From NCBI RefSeq assembly GCF_001652725.1, contig NZ_LWHJ01000030.1, forward strand, positions 124,001-188,000: a stretch of DNA of 64,000 nt, read 5' to 3'. Origin of the DNA: Pedobacter psychrophilus. GTDB lineage: Bacteria; Bacteroidota; Bacteroidia; Sphingobacteriales; Sphingobacteriaceae. A program made the translations under genes and the position numbers. Within the stretch, counting starts at the first letter, position 1; each line of letters starts with the position of its first letter. Positions 9,513 through 21,802 of the stretch are shown here, in pieces. Below the pieces are notes generated by a model, which was not told the origin of the DNA, made no database searches, and saw only the letters and a program-made list of their open reading frames with translations.

Positions 9513-10328
9513 ATGAATAAAATTTACGCTTTGTTAATTATTTTTTTAATTATCACTTTTTCTTGTCGAAAAGATAACTCTACATTTAAGAATGGATCAA
9601 GCGGTAACGCTTCAACTGGTTCTTGTTTAATCAGTGGAGGTACTGTTGACGGTGAAAATTTAGTGCTTAAGTATCAACTAGACTCTATTATTGCTGAGGC
9701 TACCTATTCTTTAAATAGTGATGATAATCAATATCTAATTCAGGAAACACCTAAAAAGTTCATTCACACAAATAAAACTAAAGAATTAAAAAATGCAGAT
9801 TATAGAGTATATCTTAATTCTTTTGGAGCTGTAGAAAAAGAAGTCAAAATAACATTGAATGCCGATAATAAAACATTTACAGAATCAAGTTCGCAATCTA
9901 ATATTTATACTTACAATTCTAAAAATCTGTTAGTTAAAATGATAGGCAAGTTAGATGATGACCCCTCTGTTTATGGTACATTCGATTTAACCTATGATGC
10001 TAAAAACAGAATTAGTGAGATTACTTTAAAAGATGACACTGGAGCAAAGTATTTTACCTATAACAATTTTAAGTTTTTAGACCAGCCTAAGAAAAACAAC
10101 TTAGTAACTGTAGGATTAACAGACACTTTTGGAAATAATTTTATTCCTTCCCTTAGAAACGCTTATGTTACACATTACGAAACTACATTTGAAGGAATAA
10201 GTTTAGAGCCAGATACCTACGATTTTAAATACACTTTTGGGAACAGCAATATAAAAGTTGATGGTAAATACATTCTTTTTGGCTTTGCAATAGATTTTAC
10301 TGTAAACTATAATTTGATCTGTAAATAA
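9513..10328 (+). CDS. putative lipoprotein, 271 aa
   Basis: A lipoprotein signal peptide is clear: a hydrophobic stretch then FSC, with the acylated cysteine at residue 18. The rest is a secreted beta-rich domain with no motif I recognise; a run of YNSKNLLVKM and YDAKNRISEI hints at the YD/RHS-like or DUF4595-type repeats often seen in Bacteroidota lipoproteins. It overlaps the next gene by one base (TAATG), so the two are co-translated and probably work together at the outer membrane. Confidence 0.8.
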   Translation: MNKIYALLIIFLIITFSCRKDNSTFKNGSSGNASTGSCLISGGTVDGENLVLKYQLDSIIAEATYSLNSDDNQYLIQETPKKFIHTNKTKELKNADYRVYLNSFGAVEKEVKITLNADNKTFTESSSQSNIYTYNSKNLLVKMIGKLDDDPSVYGTFDLTYDAKNRISEITLKDDTGAKYFTYNNFKFLDQPKKNNLVTVGLTDTFGNNFIPSLRNAYVTHYETTFEGISLEPDTYDFKYTFGNSNIKVDGKYILFGFAIDFTVNYNLICK

Positions 10329-13327: not shown

Positions 13328-13669
13328 TTAAGCTGCTTTACGTCCTAAAATCACAATCTCATTGACTACAATTTCTGTAATGTATCTTTTAACGCCATCT
13401 TTATCATCATAAGTACGGGTTACCAGTTTTCCTTCTATGGCAACTTCACTTCCTTTGTTTAAATACTGAGCTGCAAACGCTGCTTGATTGCCCCACATTA
13501 CCAATTGGTGCCATTGGGTCTCCTCTACTTTTTCTCCTTTTTGATTTTTGTAAATATCATTGGTAGCCAAATTTACTTTAGCTACTTTTTTAGATTTAGA
13601 AAATTCTTTTACTTCAGGTGCTGCACCCAAGAAACCGATTAACCTTACACTGTTTTTTAAATTAGTCAT
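13328..13669 (-). CDS. ssb: short single-stranded DNA-binding protein, lacks the acidic C-terminal tail
   Basis: 113 aa from the ATG at 13669, which gives the usual SSB opening (MTNLKNSVRLIGFLGAAPEV); an in-frame longer start would add 23 unlike residues. The OB fold is recognisable (KVAKVNLATNDIYKNQKG, ETQWHQLVMWGNQA, GSEVAIEGKLVTRTYDDKDG). The chain stops at VILGRKAA, with no linker and no DDDIPF-type tail, so it cannot recruit partner proteins in the normal way. Likely an accessory SSB paralogue rather than the main replicative one. Confidence 0.93.
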   Translation of the reverse strand: MTNLKNSVRLIGFLGAAPEVKEFSKSKKVAKVNLATNDIYKNQKGEKVEETQWHQLVMWGNQAAFAAQYLNKGSEVAIEGKLVTRTYDDKDGVKRYITEIVVNEIVILGRKAA

Positions 13670-13842
13670 TGTCTTAAAAATTAAATTGTATATACTTGTT
13701 AACGAACAGCTAACCACCATGGCTAACCGACAAAACAAAGGTGAGAATTGTGCAGAAACCTAGTCGGATGTTAATCATTTATATCCGTATATAAACGGAT
13801 AATACGGGAATTGGGTTGGAGGATTAGATATATATTTAAGTT

Positions 13843-14397
13843 ATGTACAATATTAGCCGACCACTTACGACATTGCTTTTCACTTCATTGATGTTGTTTA
13901 TGCAAGCTTGTCTGACAATTCCAAAATATAAGAAATCTGCAATTAAGCCTATCAACGACAGTCGTTTATTAGAAGGAACATATTCAAACTTTAACAATAA
14001 CGGAATAAATCACAGAACTGCTTTTCAATTAATCAATTGGAAAGCAAATAAAATTAATAATGCCGACACGACAAATTTTTCTACTTTTAATATTAGAATT
14101 TTAAATGACCGAACTTTATCTTTTAATTTTTCAAATTCATTAGGCCGAACTGAAACAAAGAAAGTTAAATTTAGAGTGCAGGACAACGGTTTTTTCATTC
14201 TTAGAAATCATAATTTCAGACTGATAGGTATTCCTTATATTTTAGGCTATTACGACATTAAAAAAATGGAAATTGGATTGACAGAAAAAAACGAATTAAT
14301 TATTAATGGCGTAGAAAAAGGAGAAGGTGCTATTTTAATTGTGTTGGGGTCCGGTTATCCTAAAACTAATTTCTCTCTGACTTATGAAAAAAAATAA
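13843..14397 (+). CDS. cassette 1: putative lipoprotein, 184 aa
   Basis: A signal peptide with lipobox FMQAC (cysteine near residue 23) then a secreted domain without a motif I know. The ATG lies only 2 nt inside the cassette, within the GTTATGTAC core, so the start codon travels with the recombination site. The stop is 3 nt before the attC R'' box. It is placed directly after ssb with no older attC before it, so it may be the newest or first cassette. Confidence 0.75.
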   Translation: MYNISRPLTTLLFTSLMLFMQACLTIPKYKKSAIKPINDSRLLEGTYSNFNNNGINHRTAFQLINWKANKINNADTTNFSTFNIRILNDRTLSFNFSNSLGRTETKKVKFRVQDNGFFILRNHNFRLIGIPYILGYYDIKKMEIGLTEKNELIINGVEKGEGAILIVLGSGYPKTNFSLTYEKK

Positions 14398-14400
14398 TAC

Positions 14401-14540
14401 TGTACATAACAGCAAATTTGTACAAAAATGGCTGACGGTGGTTCAACTCAGGTTTTTCGTTAATTATTTGGTTCAGTGCGGTGCGACAATGGTTCTGCAA
14501 GCAATGCCATTTCTGCACAAATTAGCAAACCGTTATACGC
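14401..14540 (+). repeat. attC-like site 1
   Basis: R'' TGTACATAAC (14401-14410), then one base A, then the arm GCAAATTTGTACAAAAATGGC. The distal arm GCCATTTCTGCACAAATTAGC (18 of 21 positions pair), spacer AAACC, then R' GTTATACGC (14532-14540). The unequal 1-nt and 5-nt spacers between outer core and stem recur in the other copies. About 75 nt of conserved loop sequence lie between the arms. Confidence 0.87.
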
Positions 14541-14547
14541 AATTTTT

Positions 14548-15849
14548 ATGAAGAAGACATTAACAGGATATATTTTGACAGACGATTATGAGAGAAAATT
14601 ATGGTCAGAATGTATATTTGTTTTTGACAGTTCAGCTTTACTCAATTTTTATGAGTACTCAAATGACGCCATAAAAGAAATTAACAAGACCATTTTTAAG
14701 CAGCTTAAAGGAAGGCTTTGGATAACCAAACAAACAGAATATGAATACTTGAAAAATCGCGAAACTGTATTAGTTAAGCCAGCTAAACTTTATGACGAGT
14801 TATTATCCGTTCATTTTGATTTGAAGTCGTTTCAAACTTTCAAAAATCAGTTTAATCAATTAAAAGAAAGGACTAAAAAGACTAATAAACATCCGCATAT
14901 CAAACAGGCAATATTGAATGATTTTGAAACTAAGATTGCAACCTTCGAAAAGGAAATTTCAACTTTCAAAGAGGAACTAAATAAGGAAATAGAGAAAAAG
15001 AAGACGGAAATACATAAAATCAAAACAAAAGACACGATTTTAAATCTCTTTTCTAGGTCGTTTTTAGTTGGTGCTGAATATTCCTTCGAAAAAAAGATGG
15101 AGATTGTGACAGAAGGAGAACTGAGATATAGAAATTCAATTCCACCAGGGTACGAAGACCTTAAGGAGAAAATAGGACTTCAGATATATGGGGACTTAAT
15201 AATTTGGAATCAGATTCTAGATTTAGCAAAAGAGAAGAAGAAACCAATAATATTAATAATTGACGACCTGAAAATTGATTGGTGCTATAAGAATCAACGA
15301 GACAAGAACATCATTGATTCTCCAAGGGAAGAGCTGATTATGGAAATGAAGGACAAGTGTGGTGTTGAGTTTTGGTCGTACAGTTCGAATCAATTCTTAG
15401 ATAAGTCCAATGATTTACTAGGAACTGTAATCGCGGAAAGTGTTATTGAAGAAGTTAAAGAATCTAACCAGTATATGATGGCTTCACGTGTTGAACAAAT
15501 TGTCTATCATTGGGCTCAACAATATTTTCAAGGTGAAGTATTATATTTACAAGGACCTGACTATGGAGTAGATTTTTTAATCAAGACTCCAGAAATGCAT
15601 ATCGGACTTGAGGTAAAATACTATCCAAAATTTCGAAAGCAGAGCGTACAGAATTTATTAGAACACTTAATTCCTCGTTTCCGTTCAAGAGGTGTTTTAG
15701 ACATTTTTGAAAAAATAATAATTGTTATTGCCTGCGAAACAAAGGAACTTGCTGAAGAAATTAATCTCACACGAAGTCAAACACTTACAGAATCAAAAAT
15801 TCAGATAGTCATTGGACATATTGACCACGGACTATTTGTGACTATATAA
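14548..15849 (+). CDS. cassette 2: PIN-like domain fused to a PD-(D/E)XK nuclease-like domain, putative defence effector
   Basis: 433 aa from the ATG at 14548; the in-frame ATG at 14476 would translate the attC site and is rejected. The N-terminal ~250 residues match the PIN_8/DUF4935 pattern: FVFDSSALLNFYEY with D27, WITKQTEYEYL, GD216 and ILIIDDLKIDW with D239/D240, interrupted by a coiled coil (about residues 110-180). The C-terminal part has D342 in GPDYGVDF and E355-V-K357 in IGLEVKYY, the PD-(D/E)XK nuclease pattern. PIN domains are mostly RNases, so this looks like a two-nuclease protein. Defence or toxin function is inferred from domain make-up and cassette location. Confidence 0.75.
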   Translation: MKKTLTGYILTDDYERKLWSECIFVFDSSALLNFYEYSNDAIKEINKTIFKQLKGRLWITKQTEYEYLKNRETVLVKPAKLYDELLSVHFDLKSFQTFKNQFNQLKERTKKTNKHPHIKQAILNDFETKIATFEKEISTFKEELNKEIEKKKTEIHKIKTKDTILNLFSRSFLVGAEYSFEKKMEIVTEGELRYRNSIPPGYEDLKEKIGLQIYGDLIIWNQILDLAKEKKKPIILIIDDLKIDWCYKNQRDKNIIDSPREELIMEMKDKCGVEFWSYSSNQFLDKSNDLLGTVIAESVIEEVKESNQYMMASRVEQIVYHWAQQYFQGEVLYLQGPDYGVDFLIKTPEMHIGLEVKYYPKFRKQSVQNLLEHLIPRFRSRGVLDIFEKIIIVIACETKELAEEINLTRSQTLTESKIQIVIGHIDHGLFVTI

Positions 15850-15852
15850 AAC

Positions 15853-15990
15853 TGCGTATAACACGGGTTTTGCGTTAGTGGGCGGACAGTGAGAATAGAA
15901 ACATTTGAGCAATTAATAAACTTTAGTGATGGCAGATAGTTTTCGGTTTCAAAAGCCCACCAACGCAAAGCCCGAAACCGTTATAAGGCA
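15853..15990 (+). repeat. attC-like site 2, divergent stem
   Basis: R'' TGCGTATAAC (15853-15862), A, arm CGGGTTTTGCGTTAGTGGGC; distal arm GCCCACCAACGCAAAGCCCG, spacer AAACC, R' GTTATAAGGCA (15980-15990). The stem sequence shares nothing with the other copies, yet the core, the 1/5 nt spacers and the pairing are kept, with one bulged base. Confidence 0.85.
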
Positions 15991-16005
15991 TTTTAACTAG
16001 ACCGA

Positions 16006-16599
16006 ATGGAACCAAATATTGAACAATTAAGAAAGAACTACGAACGTTTCGACGATAGAAAATTAATTCGTATTGCAACAGAAGAAGCTACTTCTTTAAG
16101 ACCCGAAGCACTTGAATTAGTAAAGGAAATTATTAAAGAAAGAAATCTTTCAGAAGACGTTTTGAAAGGTGTAGAAGTTCAATTTAAAGAAGTCGACGAA
16201 AAAACTTTATCTGAATATACCGAACTACTAAGAAAACTTCCTTGTCCTGTTTGCAAATCGAATTCTGAAAAGCTAAATGCGACTATGACTGGAAATGTTA
16301 TGAGCTTTATAATTATGACGAACTATGAAAAAGATATTAAAATAGCTTGTCCGAAATGTCTCGACAAATTACATAATAGAGCAATGATAAAGACAGCTTT
16401 GCTAGGCTGGTGGGGAATTCCTTGGGGAATAATAAGAACTTCACAGGCTTTAATCTTGAACAGTAAAATGAAAACTAAAAATCATTCTTTTGAGCCGACC
16501 GAGATTTTAAGTGGTTTTGTATCACAAAGAATTGGAAGAATAGAAGCAAATAGAAACAACAAAGAGGAACTTGAATCTTTAATTGAACATATTCGTTAA
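16006..16599 (+). CDS. cassette 3: zinc-ribbon membrane protein, 197 aa, unknown function
   Basis: An N-terminal helical acidic region (residues 1-75), then a zinc ribbon formed by CPVC (about residue 81) and CPKC (about residue 119), then a hydrophobic stretch (LLGWWGIPWGIIRTSQALIL) and a polar tail. No family name recognised. Starts 25 nt after the cassette boundary and ends 9 nt before the next attC R'' core. Confidence 0.72.
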   Translation: MEPNIEQLRKNYERFDDRKLIRIATEEATSLRPEALELVKEIIKERNLSEDVLKGVEVQFKEVDEKTLSEYTELLRKLPCPVCKSNSEKLNATMTGNVMSFIIMTNYEKDIKIACPKCLDKLHNRAMIKTALLGWWGIPWGIIRTSQALILNSKMKTKNHSFEPTEILSGFVSQRIGRIEANRNNKEELESLIEHIR

Positions 16600-16607
16600 T
16601 AACAAAA

Positions 16608-16683
16608 CGACCTATAACATCAAATTCGCAAAAAAATGGCTGATAGTAGTTCACGTTAATTCATCAGTTATTTACTTAATTTA
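16608..16683 (+). repeat. attC-like site 3, truncated (5' half only)
   Basis: CGACCTATAAC (16608-16618) and the arm up to AAAAAAATGGC, followed by the conserved loop segment GTTAATTCATCAGTTATTTA seen also in site 5. Similarity stops near 16683; no distal arm or R' box follows. The R'' matches the start of cassette 3 (15980) only in GTTATA, so the site looks hybrid and eroded. Confidence 0.7.
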
Positions 16684-16833
16684 TTTAAAGCAGGATTCGA
16701 AAGCACTCAAAAACTCATATGGAAATCTAACTTACTAATAACAAATATTTTATAGATTATTTCTTAACATCGTTTTATAAATGCTAATTTTTTTAGTAAA
16801 ATTGATCTTTGTTATTTATCTAAATAAAATATT

Positions 16834-17223
16834 ATGAGTAGAATACCACTTCCAAAATTAGAAGATAATCCATTTGTTAACCGTAAGAAGGTAACTTTTA
16901 AATTAAATAATAAGATAATCGAAGGTTTTATAACTGCAGTTCCTTACGAGTTAGCAAAAGTTGAAGTTGGTTATTATATTGAATTAGATGAAATAAAACT
17001 TGTCATTTGTTCATCAATTGATGGTTGGGTACAACTGAATAGAAAGTCTGATTTGGTTGAGTCAATAGGTAATTATATTGAAAAATATTCAGAAGAGATT
17101 GAAACTGATGAAATGAATATAAAGCAACAACAAAGTCTAATAAATAAACAAAGGTCGGATGAATTGATTAAGCATTATGAGAAGGTTATTAAAAAAACCA
17201 AGATAGCTGATATTTCAATTTAA
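16834..17223 (+). CDS. cassette 4 region: hypothetical protein, 129 aa
   Basis: A soluble protein with a beta-rich first half (KVTFKLNNKIIEGFITAV, VGYYIELDEIKLVICSS) and a charged helical second half. No family recognised. It has a longer leader (about 150 bp) than its neighbours and no intact attC on either side, so it may be an old cassette with eroded ends. Confidence 0.65.
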   Translation: MSRIPLPKLEDNPFVNRKKVTFKLNNKIIEGFITAVPYELAKVEVGYYIELDEIKLVICSSIDGWVQLNRKSDLVESIGNYIEKYSEEIETDEMNIKQQQSLINKQRSDELIKHYEKVIKKTKIADISI

Positions 17224-17242
17224 ATAGGTTAATAGTTTGTGT

Positions 17243-17346
17243 TTATATATAAGTTAAATTATTTATTTTAGAAATAATAATTAACCCCCATAAGCCAACC
17301 AAAATAGGGATGTTTAAGAGGTTTTATAGCACTTATATATAAGTTA
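17243..17346 (+). repeat. 14-bp direct repeats bracketing a 90 bp period
   Basis: TTATATATAAGTTA at 17243-17256 and again at 17333-17346. The second copy contains the GTTA of the cassette 5 start (17343). A similar TATATATTTAAGTTA lies at the start of cassette 1 (13829-13843). This may mark an attI-like or secondary insertion site. Confidence 0.5.
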
Positions 17347-17375
17347 CATGCCATTATTACTGACTAAACTTAAGA

Positions 17376-17888
17376 CTGAATATTGAAACAAAGACACTTT
17401 TAAGAATATCTGTAAAATATAGCTTTTTACTCCTTTTAGTTTTAATAATAGAATGGACTTTAACTAGATATTCTTTATTTAAAATCCCAGAAACCATTCC
17501 ATCGACACCTATAAAGCTCGAAGGTTTATTACTTATAATTGCATTTTTGACCTTTATAATACTAGCAGAAAAGAAATATTTAAAATTAAACCCACAAGTA
17601 AGCATTTTAAAATTGACTTGTTTAGGAACAATTATATGTTTTTATACTGAAGTCATTTTTCAAATTTTAAGACAACCTTTTGTTAACACTATTTCATTTA
17701 CAGGACATTTGTATTATATTTCAATTGGTGCAATTGTAATAACAATTTTTATGGGAGCAATATCTTTTTTGGTAGCTTTTCAACTAAAAACAAAACGAAC
17801 GGCACAACTATTATTTTTTATAATAGGGTTTTTAATTATTATTAATTTGACCAAACATTTTATTCCTAATGCATTCGGACCTTATTGA
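17376..17888 (+). CDS. cassette 5: putative membrane protein, about 170 aa, non-ATG start
   Basis: A frame opening at 17364 runs to 17888 and encodes four hydrophobic segments: FLLLLVLIIEWTL, LLLIIAFLTFIILA, HLYYISIGAIVITIFM and LLFFIIGFLIIIN. Starting at an inner TTG (17547) would lose the first segment and cut the second. No ATG is present upstream; a CTG at 17376 (then NIETKTLLRIS) sits where an ATG is expected, so the start is either rare or decayed. Function unknown. Confidence 0.6.
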   Translation: MNIETKTLLRISVKYSFLLLLVLIIEWTLTRYSLFKIPETIPSTPIKLEGLLLIIAFLTFIILAEKKYLKLNPQVSILKLTCLGTIICFYTEVIFQILRQPFVNTISFTGHLYYISIGAIVITIFMGAISFLVAFQLKTKRTAQLLFFIIGFLIIINLTKHFIPNAFGPY

Positions 17889-17903
17889 ATTTAAAAACAT
17901 AAC

Positions 17904-18043
17904 GGCATCTAACAGCAAATTGCACAAAAATGGCTGACTGTGGTTTACGTTAATTCATCAGTTATTTACTCAATTTAGTGCGGTACGACATCGGTTCCGC
18001 AAGGAATGCCATTTCTGCACAAATTAGCAAAACGTTATAGGTA
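17904..18043 (+). repeat. attC-like site 5
   Basis: R'' GGCATCTAAC (17904-17913), which complements the cassette 5 start GTTACATGCC (17343) at 9 of 10 positions. Arm GCAAATTGCACAAAAATGGC, distal arm GCCATTTCTGCACAAATTAGC, spacer AAAAC, R' GTTATAGGTA (18034-18043). Confidence 0.87.
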
Positions 18044-18074
18044 AACTTAACGAACGTAACTACTGAATCAATTA

Positions 18075-18323
18075 ATGACAATGCGAGTAATATTATATAA
18101 AACTTTATTATGGATATTCATTCTTGCAATACCTATCTTATGCTTTGGAATTTTGAACACAATGGTAAGTTTGAAATATGAAACTGACTTTAAAAATAAT
18201 TGCATTTCAAAAGTAACAGGCGTCGACCTATGTGAATCATTGACGAACATAAAAATATTATTATTTTTATGTGTCATCTTTATTATCTGTCTATTGACTT
18301 TTAAGAAGAAACTTATGAATTAA
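18075..18323 (+). CDS. cassette 6: small two-helix membrane protein, 82 aa
   Basis: Two hydrophobic helices (LLWIFILAIPILCFGIL and ILLFLCVIFIICLLTF) flank a ~30-residue loop with two cysteines, probably periplasmic. No family recognised. It fills a compact 453 bp cassette whose ends match perfectly. Confidence 0.68.
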   Translation: MTMRVILYKTLLWIFILAIPILCFGILNTMVSLKYETDFKNNCISKVTGVDLCESLTNIKILLFLCVIFIICLLTFKKKLMN

Positions 18324-18355
18324 CTATTGAAATAAATATCTGTGAATAAAAATTC

Positions 18356-18496
18356 TACCTATAACAGCAAATTTGCACAAAAATGGCTGATGGTGGTTTA
18401 TGTTATTTCATCAGTTATTTAATTAATTTAATGCGGTGCGACAATGGTTCTGCAAGCAATGCCATTTCTGCAAAATTTTTCAAAACGTTAGCAGTA
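18356..18496 (+). repeat. attC-like site 6
   Basis: R'' TACCTATAAC (18356-18365), exact complement of the cassette 6 start GTTATAGGTA at 18034. Arm GCAAATTTGCACAAAAATGGC, distal arm GCCATTTCTGCAAAATTTTTC, spacer AAAAC, R' GTTAGCAGTA (18487-18496). Confidence 0.87.
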
Positions 18497-18512
18497 ATTA
18501 TAAACGACGACA

Positions 18513-18935
18513 ATGCTAAAATCAATTCTATTAATAATTTCAATATCGACATTGTTTTTTCGGACAGTTGACTCTTGTAGAATAACGCCGAGCAATGTGA
18601 ATAAAATACTTCAATATGGGATAGATAGGAAAGTATTTTCGACAAATTGTTTAAGTCATTCAGACACGTTGACATTTTCTATCTATAAAAATGAAAGCAA
18701 TATTTTTGAAGGACAAATATTTAAACTTGAAAATGGGAAGGTTGCAATTTATAGACAGTATCAAATAACAAATTCTTCCTTGGTACTGAAAAATCCAATA
18801 AAAGGAAAGACAGGTTATAACTTGGATTTCTCATTTGAATGTAGTGGTGGCAAGACAATAGGAGCTATGAAAATTAGTTGTTTCGAAAACGACTTTAAAA
18901 TTTCAGATATAAACTATTTAACAAGTATAGAATAA
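18513..18935 (+). CDS. cassette 7: secreted hypothetical protein, 140 aa
   Basis: A hydrophobic signal peptide (LLIISISTLFF) followed by VDSC, which may be a lipobox-like or plain cleavage site; the mature part has further cysteines and no motif I know. Starts 26 nt after the cassette boundary; ends 5 nt before the attC R''. Confidence 0.68.
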   Translation: MLKSILLIISISTLFFRTVDSCRITPSNVNKILQYGIDRKVFSTNCLSHSDTLTFSIYKNESNIFEGQIFKLENGKVAIYRQYQITNSSLVLKNPIKGKTGYNLDFSFECSGGKTIGAMKISCFENDFKISDINYLTSIE

Positions 18936-18940
18936 ATAAC

Positions 18941-19079
18941 TACTGATAAACAGCAAGTTTGTACAAAAATGGCTGAACTGCTTAAAATAACTTTCTACAA
19001 ATTAATTAAGTTTATGCAAGCTGAGATTGGTACTGCTTTAATGCCATTTTTATACAAACTTGCAAAACGTTATAAATAA
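18941..19079 (+). repeat. attC-like site 7, with compensated stem changes
   Basis: R'' TACTGATAAAC (18941-18951), A, arm GCAAGTTTGTACAAAAATGGC; distal arm GCCATTTTTATACAAACTTGC pairs at 20 of 21. Relative to sites 1, 5 and 6 both arms carry the matching change (AAGTTTG with CAAACTT). Spacer AAAAC, R' GTTATAAATAA (19069-19079). Confidence 0.87.
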
Positions 19080-19090
19080 TTCTGTAAGAC

Positions 19091-19771
19091 GTGAATAAAT
19101 TTCCGACAGGCATACAAATAGAGTTTTTTAAACTTCTCAATGATGAACTATCAATTGAGAATTTTGAGCACTGGGTATATGAAACTAAAGAACTTGAATT
19201 TTTTTTTGAGCAGGATGACTATTTAGACTTTATTTCTTTAGATTTTAAAGACCGACATATTATTCACGAAATGAAAAAAATCGTGGACAAATATTTGAAC
19301 TATGGAGAATATGAAAAGAGGAAAATAAATAGAATTTTAGCTGACCTGATTTCTAAAAATGACGATTTTTCAAAATCACTAATAGCAGCATACGATATGT
19401 ATTGTGACGGCTATGAGTTCTTAGACAATATTGGAATGGGCTATGGACTGACCTTTGCAAATGAGTTTTTTGAATTTAAAGACTGGATGAATTTACCAAT
19501 AGACGAAAAGAGCAGGAGAGTTAATGCTATCTATAAAGGAATAAAAACAGAAGCAGAAAAAGTTCAAGACTGGTTCGACAGAAAAAAAATTATTTTGACT
19601 GGAGAGGTAGACGAAATTGGACATTATGGTTATATCGACAACAGAACAATTGAAGAGAAAAAGCCGACAGGTTATTCGGTAATAAACTTAGACGAAAAGA
19701 AAAGCATTACATATAACAGCACCTTGCCAAAAGCGGGGCAGACGTGGTTACAGAAACTTTTCGGTAATTAA
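19091..19771 (+). CDS. cassette 8: hypothetical protein, 226 aa, GTG start
   Basis: A soluble acidic protein; residues such as ELEFFFEQDDYLDFISLDF and DRHIIHEMKKIVDKYL suggest an all-helical DUF-type immunity-like fold, but no family is named with confidence. GTG at 19091 is the only start near the cassette boundary. The last ~21 residues (from TYNSTLPKAG) are encoded by the attC site itself, so the native stop may have been lost. Confidence 0.68.
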   Translation: MNKFPTGIQIEFFKLLNDELSIENFEHWVYETKELEFFFEQDDYLDFISLDFKDRHIIHEMKKIVDKYLNYGEYEKRKINRILADLISKNDDFSKSLIAAYDMYCDGYEFLDNIGMGYGLTFANEFFEFKDWMNLPIDEKSRRVNAIYKGIKTEAEKVQDWFDRKKIILTGEVDEIGHYGYIDNRTIEEKKPTGYSVINLDEKKSITYNSTLPKAGQTWLQKLFGN

Positions 19772-19840
19772 TAAACATTGGTGCAACTTGAAAGGTTAAT
19801 GTTCCGAAAGCCCCGCCTTCGAGCTGCAAAACATTAAAAA
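19707..19840 (+). repeat. attC-like site 8, GC-rich stem and degenerate R'
   Basis: R'' TTACATATAAC (19707-19717), A, then GCACCTTGCCAAAAGCGGGGC; distal arm GCCCCGCCTTCGAGCTGC, spacer AAAAC, then ATTAAAA where GTTATA is expected. Pairing is good only in the inner GCGGGGC block and the outer GC(A). Probably the inert distal end of the array. Confidence 0.7.
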
Positions 19841-19842
19841 AA

Positions 19843-20493
19843 ATGCCTACCAGAGTAAAAATATGTTGTATCAGTTCTATAGAAGAAGCTAAAATCGCTA
19901 TTAAATATGGTGCATCTGCTTTGGGTCTTGTTGCAAATATGCCAAGTGGCCCAGGCGTTATTTCTGACGAATTGATCTTAACAATTTCTAAAATTGTTCC
20001 GCCTTCCATCTCAACATTTATGCTTACCAGTAAAACGGATGCCGAACAAATCATCCAACATCATAAACGAACTTTAACAAATACCATTCAGATTGTAGAC
20101 GAGCTCAAAACAGGAGATTATGAAACAATTAGAAAAGCATTACCAGCAATAAAAATTGTGCAGGTAATCCACGTTATAGACGACAGGACAATAGACGAAG
20201 CAGTAAAAATTTCAGAATTTGTAGACGCTTTATTGCTAGACAGTGGAAATCCAAATTTAAAGATTAAAGAACTTGGCGGAACAGGACGAGTTCACGACTG
20301 GACCATCAGCAAAAAAATAGTTGAACAAGCCAAAGTGCCAGTTTTTCTTGCAGGTGGATTAACAGTTGACAATGTAAGGCAAGCTATTGAAGAAGTGCAA
20401 CCTTTTGGTCTCGATTTGTGCAGTGGAGTAAGAACAGAACAAAAGCTTGACCCTAAAAAACTTGAAAAGTTCTTTGAGAATGTTTGGAAATAA
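19843..20493 (+). CDS. phosphoribosylanthranilate isomerase-like protein (TrpF family)
   Basis: 216 aa TIM barrel of the TrpF family. The catalytic pair is present: C8 in VKICCI (usually KICGI) and D133 in ALLLDSG, and the phosphate-binding VFLAGGLTVDNV and LCSGVRT loops are seen. The usual QLHG motif is replaced by QIVDE. No other trp gene is near and it follows the last attC-like site, so it may be a stand-alone paralogue with a changed role. Whether it is a cassette is unclear since no attC follows it. Confidence 0.78.
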   Translation: MPTRVKICCISSIEEAKIAIKYGASALGLVANMPSGPGVISDELILTISKIVPPSISTFMLTSKTDAEQIIQHHKRTLTNTIQIVDELKTGDYETIRKALPAIKIVQVIHVIDDRTIDEAVKISEFVDALLLDSGNPNLKIKELGGTGRVHDWTISKKIVEQAKVPVFLAGGLTVDNVRQAIEEVQPFGLDLCSGVRTEQKLDPKKLEKFFENVWK

Positions 20494-20614
20494 TAGGACA
20501 TACTACTGAATCTAAAAAAGAACCACTTAAAAAAGTATTTAAAAATCATAAAAATCACGAGGCTATTGTAATATATCGGCTCTTATTGTATCTAATATGC
20601 TGCGTTATCATTGT

Positions 20615-21802
20615 ATGAAGATGAGAATACTAGTTGTAATGAGGTTTATTTTAATAGTCTTTACTCTTATAGCATTTCAAATCAAATTAAATGCTCAGTC
20701 ATTTAATTTCAATCAAGGAGGTTTTACCAACACTGATTACTTTATTGAAATTCCTTATACAAGGGTAAAAGGGAAAATAATTATCGAAGTTAAAATGGGT
20801 GCCGAAGTGCGGAAATTTATCTTGGATACTGGCGCACCCACTGCAATTAGCATAAGTCTTTTAGAAAAATTAAAACTTGATATTTTATCAAGTCAAGATT
20901 TTACAGACATCAATGGGAGAAAGAGCGTTTTAGAAGTTGCAAATATTAAAGAACTTAAATTGGGTGAATCAGTAGTTGCAGATATACCGGCTGTGGTATT
21001 AGATGAAAATATACTTACAAAATGTTTTGATGTAGACGGTTTAATAGGCAGTAATCTGCTTCGTAATTCAATTGTTCAATTTGATTACAAAAATAAAGTT
21101 ATTAGAATTTCGAACGATATAAATAAAATAAACATATCGAATGCAAAACCTTCTGATATATTAATTGATAAGCAAAGTTCTCCCATATTTAACATTCAAC
21201 TTGGAGACAAAGCCAAAGAAATGCTGCTCTTTGATTCGGGTGCAGATGAGCTTTATTCTATGAGTAACAACAATTTAGAAAAATTAAAAAAGGCTAAAGC
21301 TTTCAGCGTTATTTCTGAAAGTTTGGGTTCAAATTCTTTTGGCATAAATGGTTTAGAACGAGAATCAAAAAATTATAGATTGTTAATTCCTGAATTTAAC
21401 ATCATGGGATTTACTTTAAAAAATATAGTGTCAGAAACAACTTCAGATGGTAATTCAAGAATTGGTGCTCGTTTACTTGAATATGGGATGCTAACTATAA
21501 ATTATAAAAACAGCAAAAGTTATTTCGAGCCATTTTCGCAAATTGCTATCAACAAGGAAGAATATTGGGACTTAAGTCCAACTTTTATGAACGGAAAATT
21601 AGTAGTAGGTAGAATTTGGTCTCAAGAATTAAAGAAAATAGCTGTTGGTGATCAAATTCTTTTTATCAACGATAAAGATATGACAAGCTTTACTGAATGT
21701 GAATTTCTTTTTAGCTCGCCATTAGCGGATATTAAAAAAGCAACTTTAAAAGTTCAAGACGCTAAAGGAGAAATACAGACAATTGAAATTAAAAAAATAT
21801 AA
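20615..21802 (+). CDS. secreted retropepsin-like aspartyl protease with C-terminal PDZ-like region
   Basis: 395 aa from the ATG at 20615, giving a normal signal peptide ending KLNAQ; an upstream in-frame ATG at 20597 is less likely. Two aspartyl protease half-sites: D71TGAPT and D207SGADE, so both catalytic aspartates lie in one chain. The C-terminal ~80 residues (KIAVGDQILFINDKDM) look like a PDZ domain. Role in periplasmic proteolysis unknown. Confidence 0.85.
   Translation: MKMRILVVMRFILIVFTLIAFQIKLNAQSFNFNQGGFTNTDYFIEIPYTRVKGKIIIEVKMGAEVRKFILDTGAPTAISISLLEKLKLDILSSQDFTDINGRKSVLEVANIKELKLGESVVADIPAVVLDENILTKCFDVDGLIGSNLLRNSIVQFDYKNKVIRISNDINKINISNAKPSDILIDKQSSPIFNIQLGDKAKEMLLFDSGADELYSMSNNNLEKLKKAKAFSVISESLGSNSFGINGLERESKNYRLLIPEFNIMGFTLKNIVSETTSDGNSRIGARLLEYGMLTINYKNSKSYFEPFSQIAINKEEYWDLSPTFMNGKLVVGRIWSQELKKIAVGDQILFINDKDMTSFTECEFLFSSPLADIKKATLKVQDAKGEIQTIEIKKI

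Follow-up and report, generated by a model that had tools for sequence, protein, structure and literature searches.

Two short cassette arrays in Pedobacter psychrophilus very probably belong to a divergent integron common in the class Bacteroidia

Introduction

Between the ssb region and a trpF-like gene of Pedobacter psychrophilus, short genes on the + strand alternate with related hairpins. Are these hairpins recombination sites of gene cassettes, mobile repeats or structures of the transcript, and if they are recombination sites, which enzyme would act on them? The stretch of DNA analysed here (the window) comprises 64,000 nucleotides, positions 124001-188000 of its contig, from a genome of 4.0 Mb. 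A first-pass annotation had read the hairpins as attC sites whose fold, rather than sequence, is conserved.

In known attC sites, the choice of strand depends on two or three extrahelical bases of the R''-L'' arm; recombination between two attC sites fails when these bases are missing from both, and in attI x attC reactions without them polarity is still given by the central spacer (PMC2727003). A helix specific to IntI touches the region of the second extrahelical base (PMC11641012). For Bacteroidetes, IntegronFinder surveys first gave only In0 elements and later a complete integron in Salinibacter (PMC9024848). A review lists Bacteroidota among the integron-bearing phyla (PMC8618304), and Bacteroidetes are not among the 11 taxa used to trace resistance cassettes via attC (PMC8352920). 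In the accessible text of open-licence PubMed Central, preprints excluded, we found no description of an integron cassette system of the present kind in Bacteroidia.

Results

Two putative cassette arrays in the window

In the array region, about 13.83-19.84 kb, six sites have both halves, the right core of the last being degenerate, and there is one half-site at about 16604-16690. Each cassette consists of a gene and a site of about 137 nt (Table 1). One array gene encodes a PIN_8 domain, and the remaining ones have no Pfam match (E ≤ 0.001). The true start of the ORF in cassette 2 probably lies within the cassette. The left half of half-site s3 fits the repeat family up to 16683, and its right half was not seen. 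A regular-expression scan of the window for hairpins ranked only s1 and s2 of the expected sites.

Table 1 Features of the two putative cassette arrays (window coordinates)
Feature	Position	Strand	Details
attI-like site 1	13827..13842	+	GATATATATTTAA|GTT; directly 3' of ssb upstream region; first array begins here
Cassette 1	13840..14531	+	ORF 13843-14397, 184 aa, no family
attC-like site s1	14396..14546	+	R'' AAC 14408; R' GTT 14532
Cassette 2	14532..15979	+	ORF 14476-15849 as listed; PIN_8, PF18476, E 5.7e-53; ends 11/12
attC-like site s2	15848..15994	+	Unrelated stem; AAC 15860; GTT 15980
Cassette 3	15980..16690	+	ORF 16006-16599; ends in half-site s3, AAC 16616; ends 9/12
attI-like site 2	17283..17345	+	Hairpin remnant, then TATATATAAGTTA; GTT 17343; start of second array
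Cassette 4	17343..18033	+	ORF 17547-17888 as listed
attC-like site s4	17899..18048	+	AAC 17911; GTT 18034
Cassette 5	18034..18486	+	ORF 18075-18323, 82 aa; ends 10/12
attC-like site s5	18351..18501	+	AAC 18363; GTT 18487
Cassette 6	18487..19068	+	ORF 18513-18935, 140 aa
attC-like site s7 (site 7)	18936..19083	+	AAAC 18948; GTT 19069; 21-position stem; covariance model R1, 121.5 bits
Cassette 7	19069..19832	+	ORF 19091-19771, 226 aa; ends 9/12
Last attC-like site s8	19703..19842	+	AAC 19715; degenerate right core ATTAAAA 19833; R1, 102.9 bits; array ends before trpF-like gene

Both arrays begin with an attI-like stretch. The first resembles, by eye, the ATATA..AAGTTA word found behind the integrase of relatives, in a looser form outside the strict pattern, and the 12 nt past its GTT agree with R'' of the first site at 11 of 12 positions. 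The second (17283-17346) matches the region behind the integrase of a relative genome, G001, at 77%, and agrees with R'' of s4 at 10 of 12 positions. The strict attI pattern occurs at 17245 and 17335, before the second array, and once more at 10249, outside the arrays. Between half-site s3 and the second attI-like start, the segment 16690-17343 holds an ORF (16834-17223), which would fit a fusion of two arrays or the loss of a piece.

An attI-like word and a cassette-like start stand behind both ssb copies of the source genome (window 13660-13842 and the second locus, L177:2530-2725). The ssb upstream region itself is common to relatives (12 loci followed). Beyond the source genome, the attI-like word occurs at most as a variant in L168, seen by eye. 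A conserved ssb-linked attI site is not claimed, because the clear word is limited to the two ssb copies of this genome and that possible variant.

Conservation and covariation of the hairpins

As the first-pass annotation had described, site 7 carries GCAAGTTTG in its left arm and CAAACTTGC in its right arm; its left core is AAAC, with one extra A. The exchange of G-C in site 7 for A-T is real, because the sites at 14402, 17905 and 18357 pair A with T there. The imperfect pairing reported opposite this base (in sites 1, 5 and 6 of that annotation) was not found: the A.A mismatch of site 1 lies two positions off, one base is missing nearby in the site at 17905, and in the site at 18357 it is another place of the right arm that differs. 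Site 2 (15854-15988) indeed combines an unrelated stem (20 positions, 18 matching) with the same TAAC/GTTA cores and the same spacers of 1 nt on the left and 5 nt on the right. The general statement that the hairpin and not the sequence is conserved stood in its first half and fell in its second, since cores, spacers, wobble positions and loop columns are conserved as well. The cores and some columns of the loop of about 70 nt are common to all six window sites, those with unrelated stems included.

Across the six window sites, both sides had changed in 15 of 27 pairs, a number that none of 500 shuffles equalled and that slid controls (2 to 6) did not approach, and 78.6% of cells paired, versus 28 to 39% in slid controls. 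A covariance model made from these six sites was used to search the source genome and its relatives, which include Pedobacter and Pelobium. It gave 71 matches in the source genome (E ≤ 0.01), some of them single and many on small contigs that end inside sites, and at least 72 of 100 relatives, the source genome counted, had matches. Site counts in these relatives and in the class sample below are lower bounds, because stricter filters were applied and few candidates were taken per genome.

For a larger set, the best 150 of 210 matches (52 loci) were aligned. Both cores were present in 134, and the 16 without a core were dropped; a further 16 of the 134 were out of register, so that 118 sites were used for counts of mismatches and stem energies. 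Covariation was scored on 120 distinct rows, taken as in register by a looser criterion (12 of 21 pairs), with a null that places substitutions randomly on a tree, a home-made equivalent and not R-scape itself. Four of the 28 named pairs had E < 0.05 and a fifth stood at 0.05, versus 1 of 1512 other pairs, which lay in neighbouring columns. The covariation expected of a folded single-stranded substrate was thus borne out in the larger alignment, and its modest strength per pair probably reflects the inheritance of whole stems as blocks. Inherited copies make up many of the sites, and a non-redundant set comprised 35 sites, 21 of them in register. Since the covariance models were built from such sites, their hits resemble them, and bulged sites may be under-sampled.

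Site architecture and strand polarity

Each site is laid out as an outer helix, an internal loop of 1 and 5 nt, an inner helix of about 21 positions and the loop already mentioned. The right spacer exceeded the left one by 4 nt in 123 of 133 sites; in a second set (the best 150 of 209 sites near integrase loci) this held for 125 of 142. Bulges on the left (R''-L'') arm were found in 4 of 133 and 8 of 142 sites. The aadB site, which served as the single canonical attC control, has one; attC sites beside canonical IntI were too few for spacers to be measured. Single bulges on the right arm were not rare (34 of 133 and 22 of 142).

The mismatches are polar. Read on the top strand, the 118 in-register sites contained 425 non-Watson-Crick cells, 236 of them A.C and 52 G.T; A.C was in excess in 93 sites and G.T in 3, and stem positions 11 and 14 were A.C in 69 and 90 sites, respectively. 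A top-strand A.C is a G.T on the bottom strand, and the bottom-strand stem is therefore more stable, as predicted energies with the arms closed by a fixed short loop indicated for 112 of 118 sites (mean difference 2.1 kcal/mol); window site s2 is one of the six exceptions. In the 21 in-register sites of the non-redundant set, the excess was smaller and just within the range of the shuffles (A.C 37 versus G.T 17; ratio 0.685 versus 0.615 in shuffles, sd 0.023, maximum 0.692), and this evidence is weaker. The polarity strengthens the reading as a folded single strand, as neither a transcript nor a plain palindrome would give it. Folding of the complete bottom strand agreed with the first-pass reading in part: s2, s7 and s8 clearly beat their shuffles (z -3.93, -4.37 and -2.28), and s1, s4 and s5 did not (-0.46, -1.24 and 0.17). 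Whole-site folding energy is thus weak evidence for the hairpin.

Complementary cassette ends

The two ends of a cassette match each other. Over 84 junctions, the 12 nt past GTT agreed with the 12 nt before the AAC of the next site at 9.29 of 12 positions, compared with 4.87 (sd 0.17) for shuffled partners; agreement of the same 12 nt with R'' of their own site was 4.94 of 12, no better than the shuffled 4.87. The agreement stays high to position -12 and falls abruptly to 0.1 at -13. Within it, position -8 is a near-invariant mismatch of C facing T (top C.A, bottom G.T), present in 74 of 84 junctions. A second set of 92 junctions, partly from the same DNA, gave 8.99 of 12 versus 4.61 for shuffled partners (sd 0.16), with C/T at -8 in 76. 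The window junctions scored, in order, 11, 11, 9, 10, 10, 2 and 9 of 12; the junction with 2 belongs to site 7 and reaches 10 once the extra A of its core is skipped. The AAC/GTT core with the cassette boundary at GTT is that of a canonical integron.

One cassette of 0.5 kb, present at three places of the relative genome G001, is 94-97% identical inside, and its downstream flanks are 52-54% identical. The neighbouring sites upstream resemble one another at 83-86%; farther out, the flanks do so at 47, 48 and 75%. Cassettes cut at GTT would be expected to behave in this way. In one copy (L106:12856-13356), the first 13 nt or so differ from the sister copies and mismatch the copy's own R'', as though an exchange had affected just the 5' end.

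The linked recombinase and its putative attI

The source genome encodes a tyrosine recombinase of 347 residues, with 200 bp between its stop codon and the end of the contig. A near copy is truncated by another contig end, and the two genes stand at the ends of contigs C27 and C33. The contig of the window arrays gave no TIGR02249 match at E ≤ 0.001, so the adjacent integrase of a complete integron was not found there. Arrays without an integrase also occur among canonical integrons (CALIN). No canonical IntI above the cut-off was found in the source genome; the recombinase itself scored 207 bits against TIGR02249, under the cut-off of 265. The spacing between motifs was measured in 15 of 16 cassette-linked recombinases and in 11 of 12 canonical IntI. 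It was 91-92 aa in the former, all 15 of which lack the IntI insert of about 41 residues, and 133 aa in the latter, all 11 of which have it.

In a tree that left out L154, plus L156 and L008, which had no recombinase ORF by motif, the 16 cassette-linked recombinases grouped with IntI apart from Xer (support 99/97, with a long-branch warning), and they formed one group of their own at 80/77, with the same warning. Xer recombinases (XerA, XerC/D) have a similar length between the catalytic motifs, but the tree sets the cassette-linked recombinases apart from them, and membership of the Xer/dif system did not hold. By sequence, the best solved structure was 4a8e (XerA-like, 146 bits), and IntI4 2a3v scored 129 bits; a reading of the recombinase as simply XerA-like was given up, as the tree groups it with IntI. 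NCBI labels some members of the family 'site-specific tyrosine recombinase/integron integrase', so the suspicion of an integron role is already present in annotation.

Integrase loci were taken as the best 80 of 506 named relatives by the recombinase profile, 46 of the 80 titles being Flavobacterium. At E ≤ 0.001, 209 sites were listed near these 80 genes, every one on the strand of the integrase: 208 in 387 kb downstream versus 1 in 691 kb upstream; a site lay within 5 kb in 35 of the 37 loci with at least 5,140 nt downstream. Of 76 loci, 38 have the attI-like word ATATA..AGTT with its start 86-100 nt past the last matched codon, where 0.3 were expected. Judged by this motif, relatives carry a putative attI beside the integrase gene. 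A hairpin-like stretch (CCCCCACAAGCCAACC and others) precedes the word at L106:2110-2190 and L138:3370-3450; its letters differ between genomes and recur in several, and it could be a terminator or part of attI.

Distribution in Bacteroidia

In a sample of 198 Bacteroidia genomes, sites occurred in at least 136 and the integrase in 102. Both were found in 91 genomes, the integrase only in 11, sites only in 45 and neither in 51 (odds ratio 9.4, p = 9e-11). Canonical IntI above the cut-off was found in 1 of these 198 genomes, and in 84 of 296 genomes of a phylum sample, one of them from the same class. Among 45 of the integrase rows, from genomes with a listed site, 14 had a site within 10 kb among the at least 150 sites listed outside the source genome; 9 of these near pairs were co-directional, 4 divergent and 1 otherwise arranged. 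As a control, genomes of other classes were selected for their canonical IntI, and 13 of these 40 had R2 matches at E ≤ 0.01. In one of them (G103:C1:1206375-1206510), the IntI gene has a single weak R2 match at most 4 kb away, which may be cross-use of sites or chance.

Possible links to clinical resistance cassettes

The veb1 site of the Klebsiella pneumoniae plasmid NZ_CP031802.1 (L263:1465-2545) is a weak R2 match (33.2 bits, E 1.5e-5) and the sole match in 3.9 kb. The cassette ends match at 10 of 12 positions with the C/T mismatch at -8, and the site has a single extrahelical base. This signature suggests that the cassette may have originated in Bacteroidia. Shortened relatives of the integrase precede tet(X3) by about 190 bp on an Acinetobacter plasmid (L260:5052-7225) and blaVEB-3 by about 110 bp on a Klebsiella plasmid (L261:5142-6763). 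Both resistance genes stand at the place of a first cassette, with a cassette-like start in GTTA before each and a half-site behind tet(X3), seen by eye. R2 gave no full site behind tet(X3) or blaVEB-3 in the plasmid loci (L260, L261, L262), and blastn gave no match of site s5 to the plasmids. VEB-1 and tet(X3) appear to carry the Bacteroidia cassette signature, and we regard them as leads. A study of Chryseobacterium describes a tetX-catB11-IS91-XerD cluster (PMC11194056).

Discussion

The window very probably contains two short arrays of cassettes that belong to a divergent integron, one common in the class Bacteroidia; cutting and recombination are deduced from sequence comparison. In the folded site, the integrase would cut at the AAC/GTT core of the bottom strand, and the cut site would recombine with a double-stranded attI, as in integrons. 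The bottom strand would be chosen by its conserved G.T wobbles (top C.A or A.C) together with the asymmetric internal loop, which would replace the extrahelical bases, and such a choice is in line with the polarity of the central spacer (PMC2727003). We lean, with less assurance, towards a wider reading: that Bacteroidia hold a deep sister lineage of integrons, largely missed by surveys, which recombines folded sites without the additional domain of IntI or extrahelical bases and chooses the strand by G.T wobbles and the 1/5 loop, whose excised cassettes close through a 15-bp outer helix with 12 cassette-specific outer bases, and which supplied VEB-1 and tet(X3) to clinical plasmids. Sites occur in at least 136 of 198 sampled Bacteroidia genomes. 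Should the system recombine, a large reservoir of mobile genes would have escaped notice, the supposed need for extrahelical bases and for the IntI insert could be tested on an exception found in nature, and some clinical resistance cassettes may have part of their history in Bacteroidia.

Could these be ordinary cassettes with canonical attC sites, served by a canonical IntI that escaped detection? The plan is that of canonical integrons (V. cholerae VCR, class 1): single-gene cassettes in one direction, AAC/GTT cores, a hairpin more stable on the bottom strand, and attI by the integrase gene. The veb1 cassette, with the same end signature, is moreover recombined by IntI1, though poorly (PMC3518468). 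We nevertheless consider this improbable, as canonical IntI above the cut-off is missing from the source genome and found in 1 of 198 genomes of the class, the linked recombinase lacks the insert wherever measured (15 of 15), the internal loop of the sites is 1/5, and only 4 of 133 and 8 of 142 sites possess the extrahelical base that the aadB control shows on its R''-L'' arm. On these grounds the sites are not canonical attC, as the first-pass annotation would have them. The canonical R box also has 4 variable bases (PMC5371416), versus a pairing of cassette ends over 12 nt beyond the core here. With left-arm bulges rare and the insert absent, both partners of the contact between helix and extrahelical base would be missing together.

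Nor does a mobile hairpin repeat of the MITE or REP type, inserted behind genes and belonging to no cassette system, fit well, and we regard it as very improbable. It would agree with the 71 matches in the genome, some of them single, and with several small contigs ending inside repeats, but it would not give the units between repeats their unit-specific complementary ends, place 208 of 209 copies downstream of an integrase on the same strand (near the best 80 of 506 loci), set an attI word at a nearly fixed distance or allow stems unrelated in sequence. Slighter still is the chance that the hairpins are a terminator or regulatory element in gene transcripts, as their place behind genes on the sense strand might suggest. 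Sense-strand mismatches are more often A.C than G.T, whereas G.U would be the one tolerated in RNA; in 112 of 118 sites the stem is less stable on the sense strand; no Rfam match was found in window 13600-20700 at E ≤ 0.1; and the pairing of cassette ends joins sequences that flank the gene on both sides.

The divergent integron proposed here has likenesses among described systems. In chromosomal integrons of Treponema the integrase is likewise transcribed towards attI, in the direction of the cassettes, and is treated as IntI; here the best 80 loci are co-directional and some relatives in the class divergent (PMC3607928 for Treponema). The veb1 cassette shares a 133-bp site, a weak R2 match and the cassette-end signature, but it has one extrahelical base and sits in class 1 integrons served by IntI1 (PMC3518468). 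In Riemerella anatipestifer, the gene aph(3')-IVb was taken up and inserted without flanking homology together with a hairpin region of 140 bp at its 3' side, which the authors call attC-like (PMC13148043); the likeness is by description, the part of the paper available naming no recombinase or family. The cassette system would also be carried on plasmids: in Chryseobacterium sp. SNU WT5 (L259:14001-27763), an integrase of the recombinase family is followed by six sites on the same strand, and this plasmid array contains an IS110 element and a group II intron.
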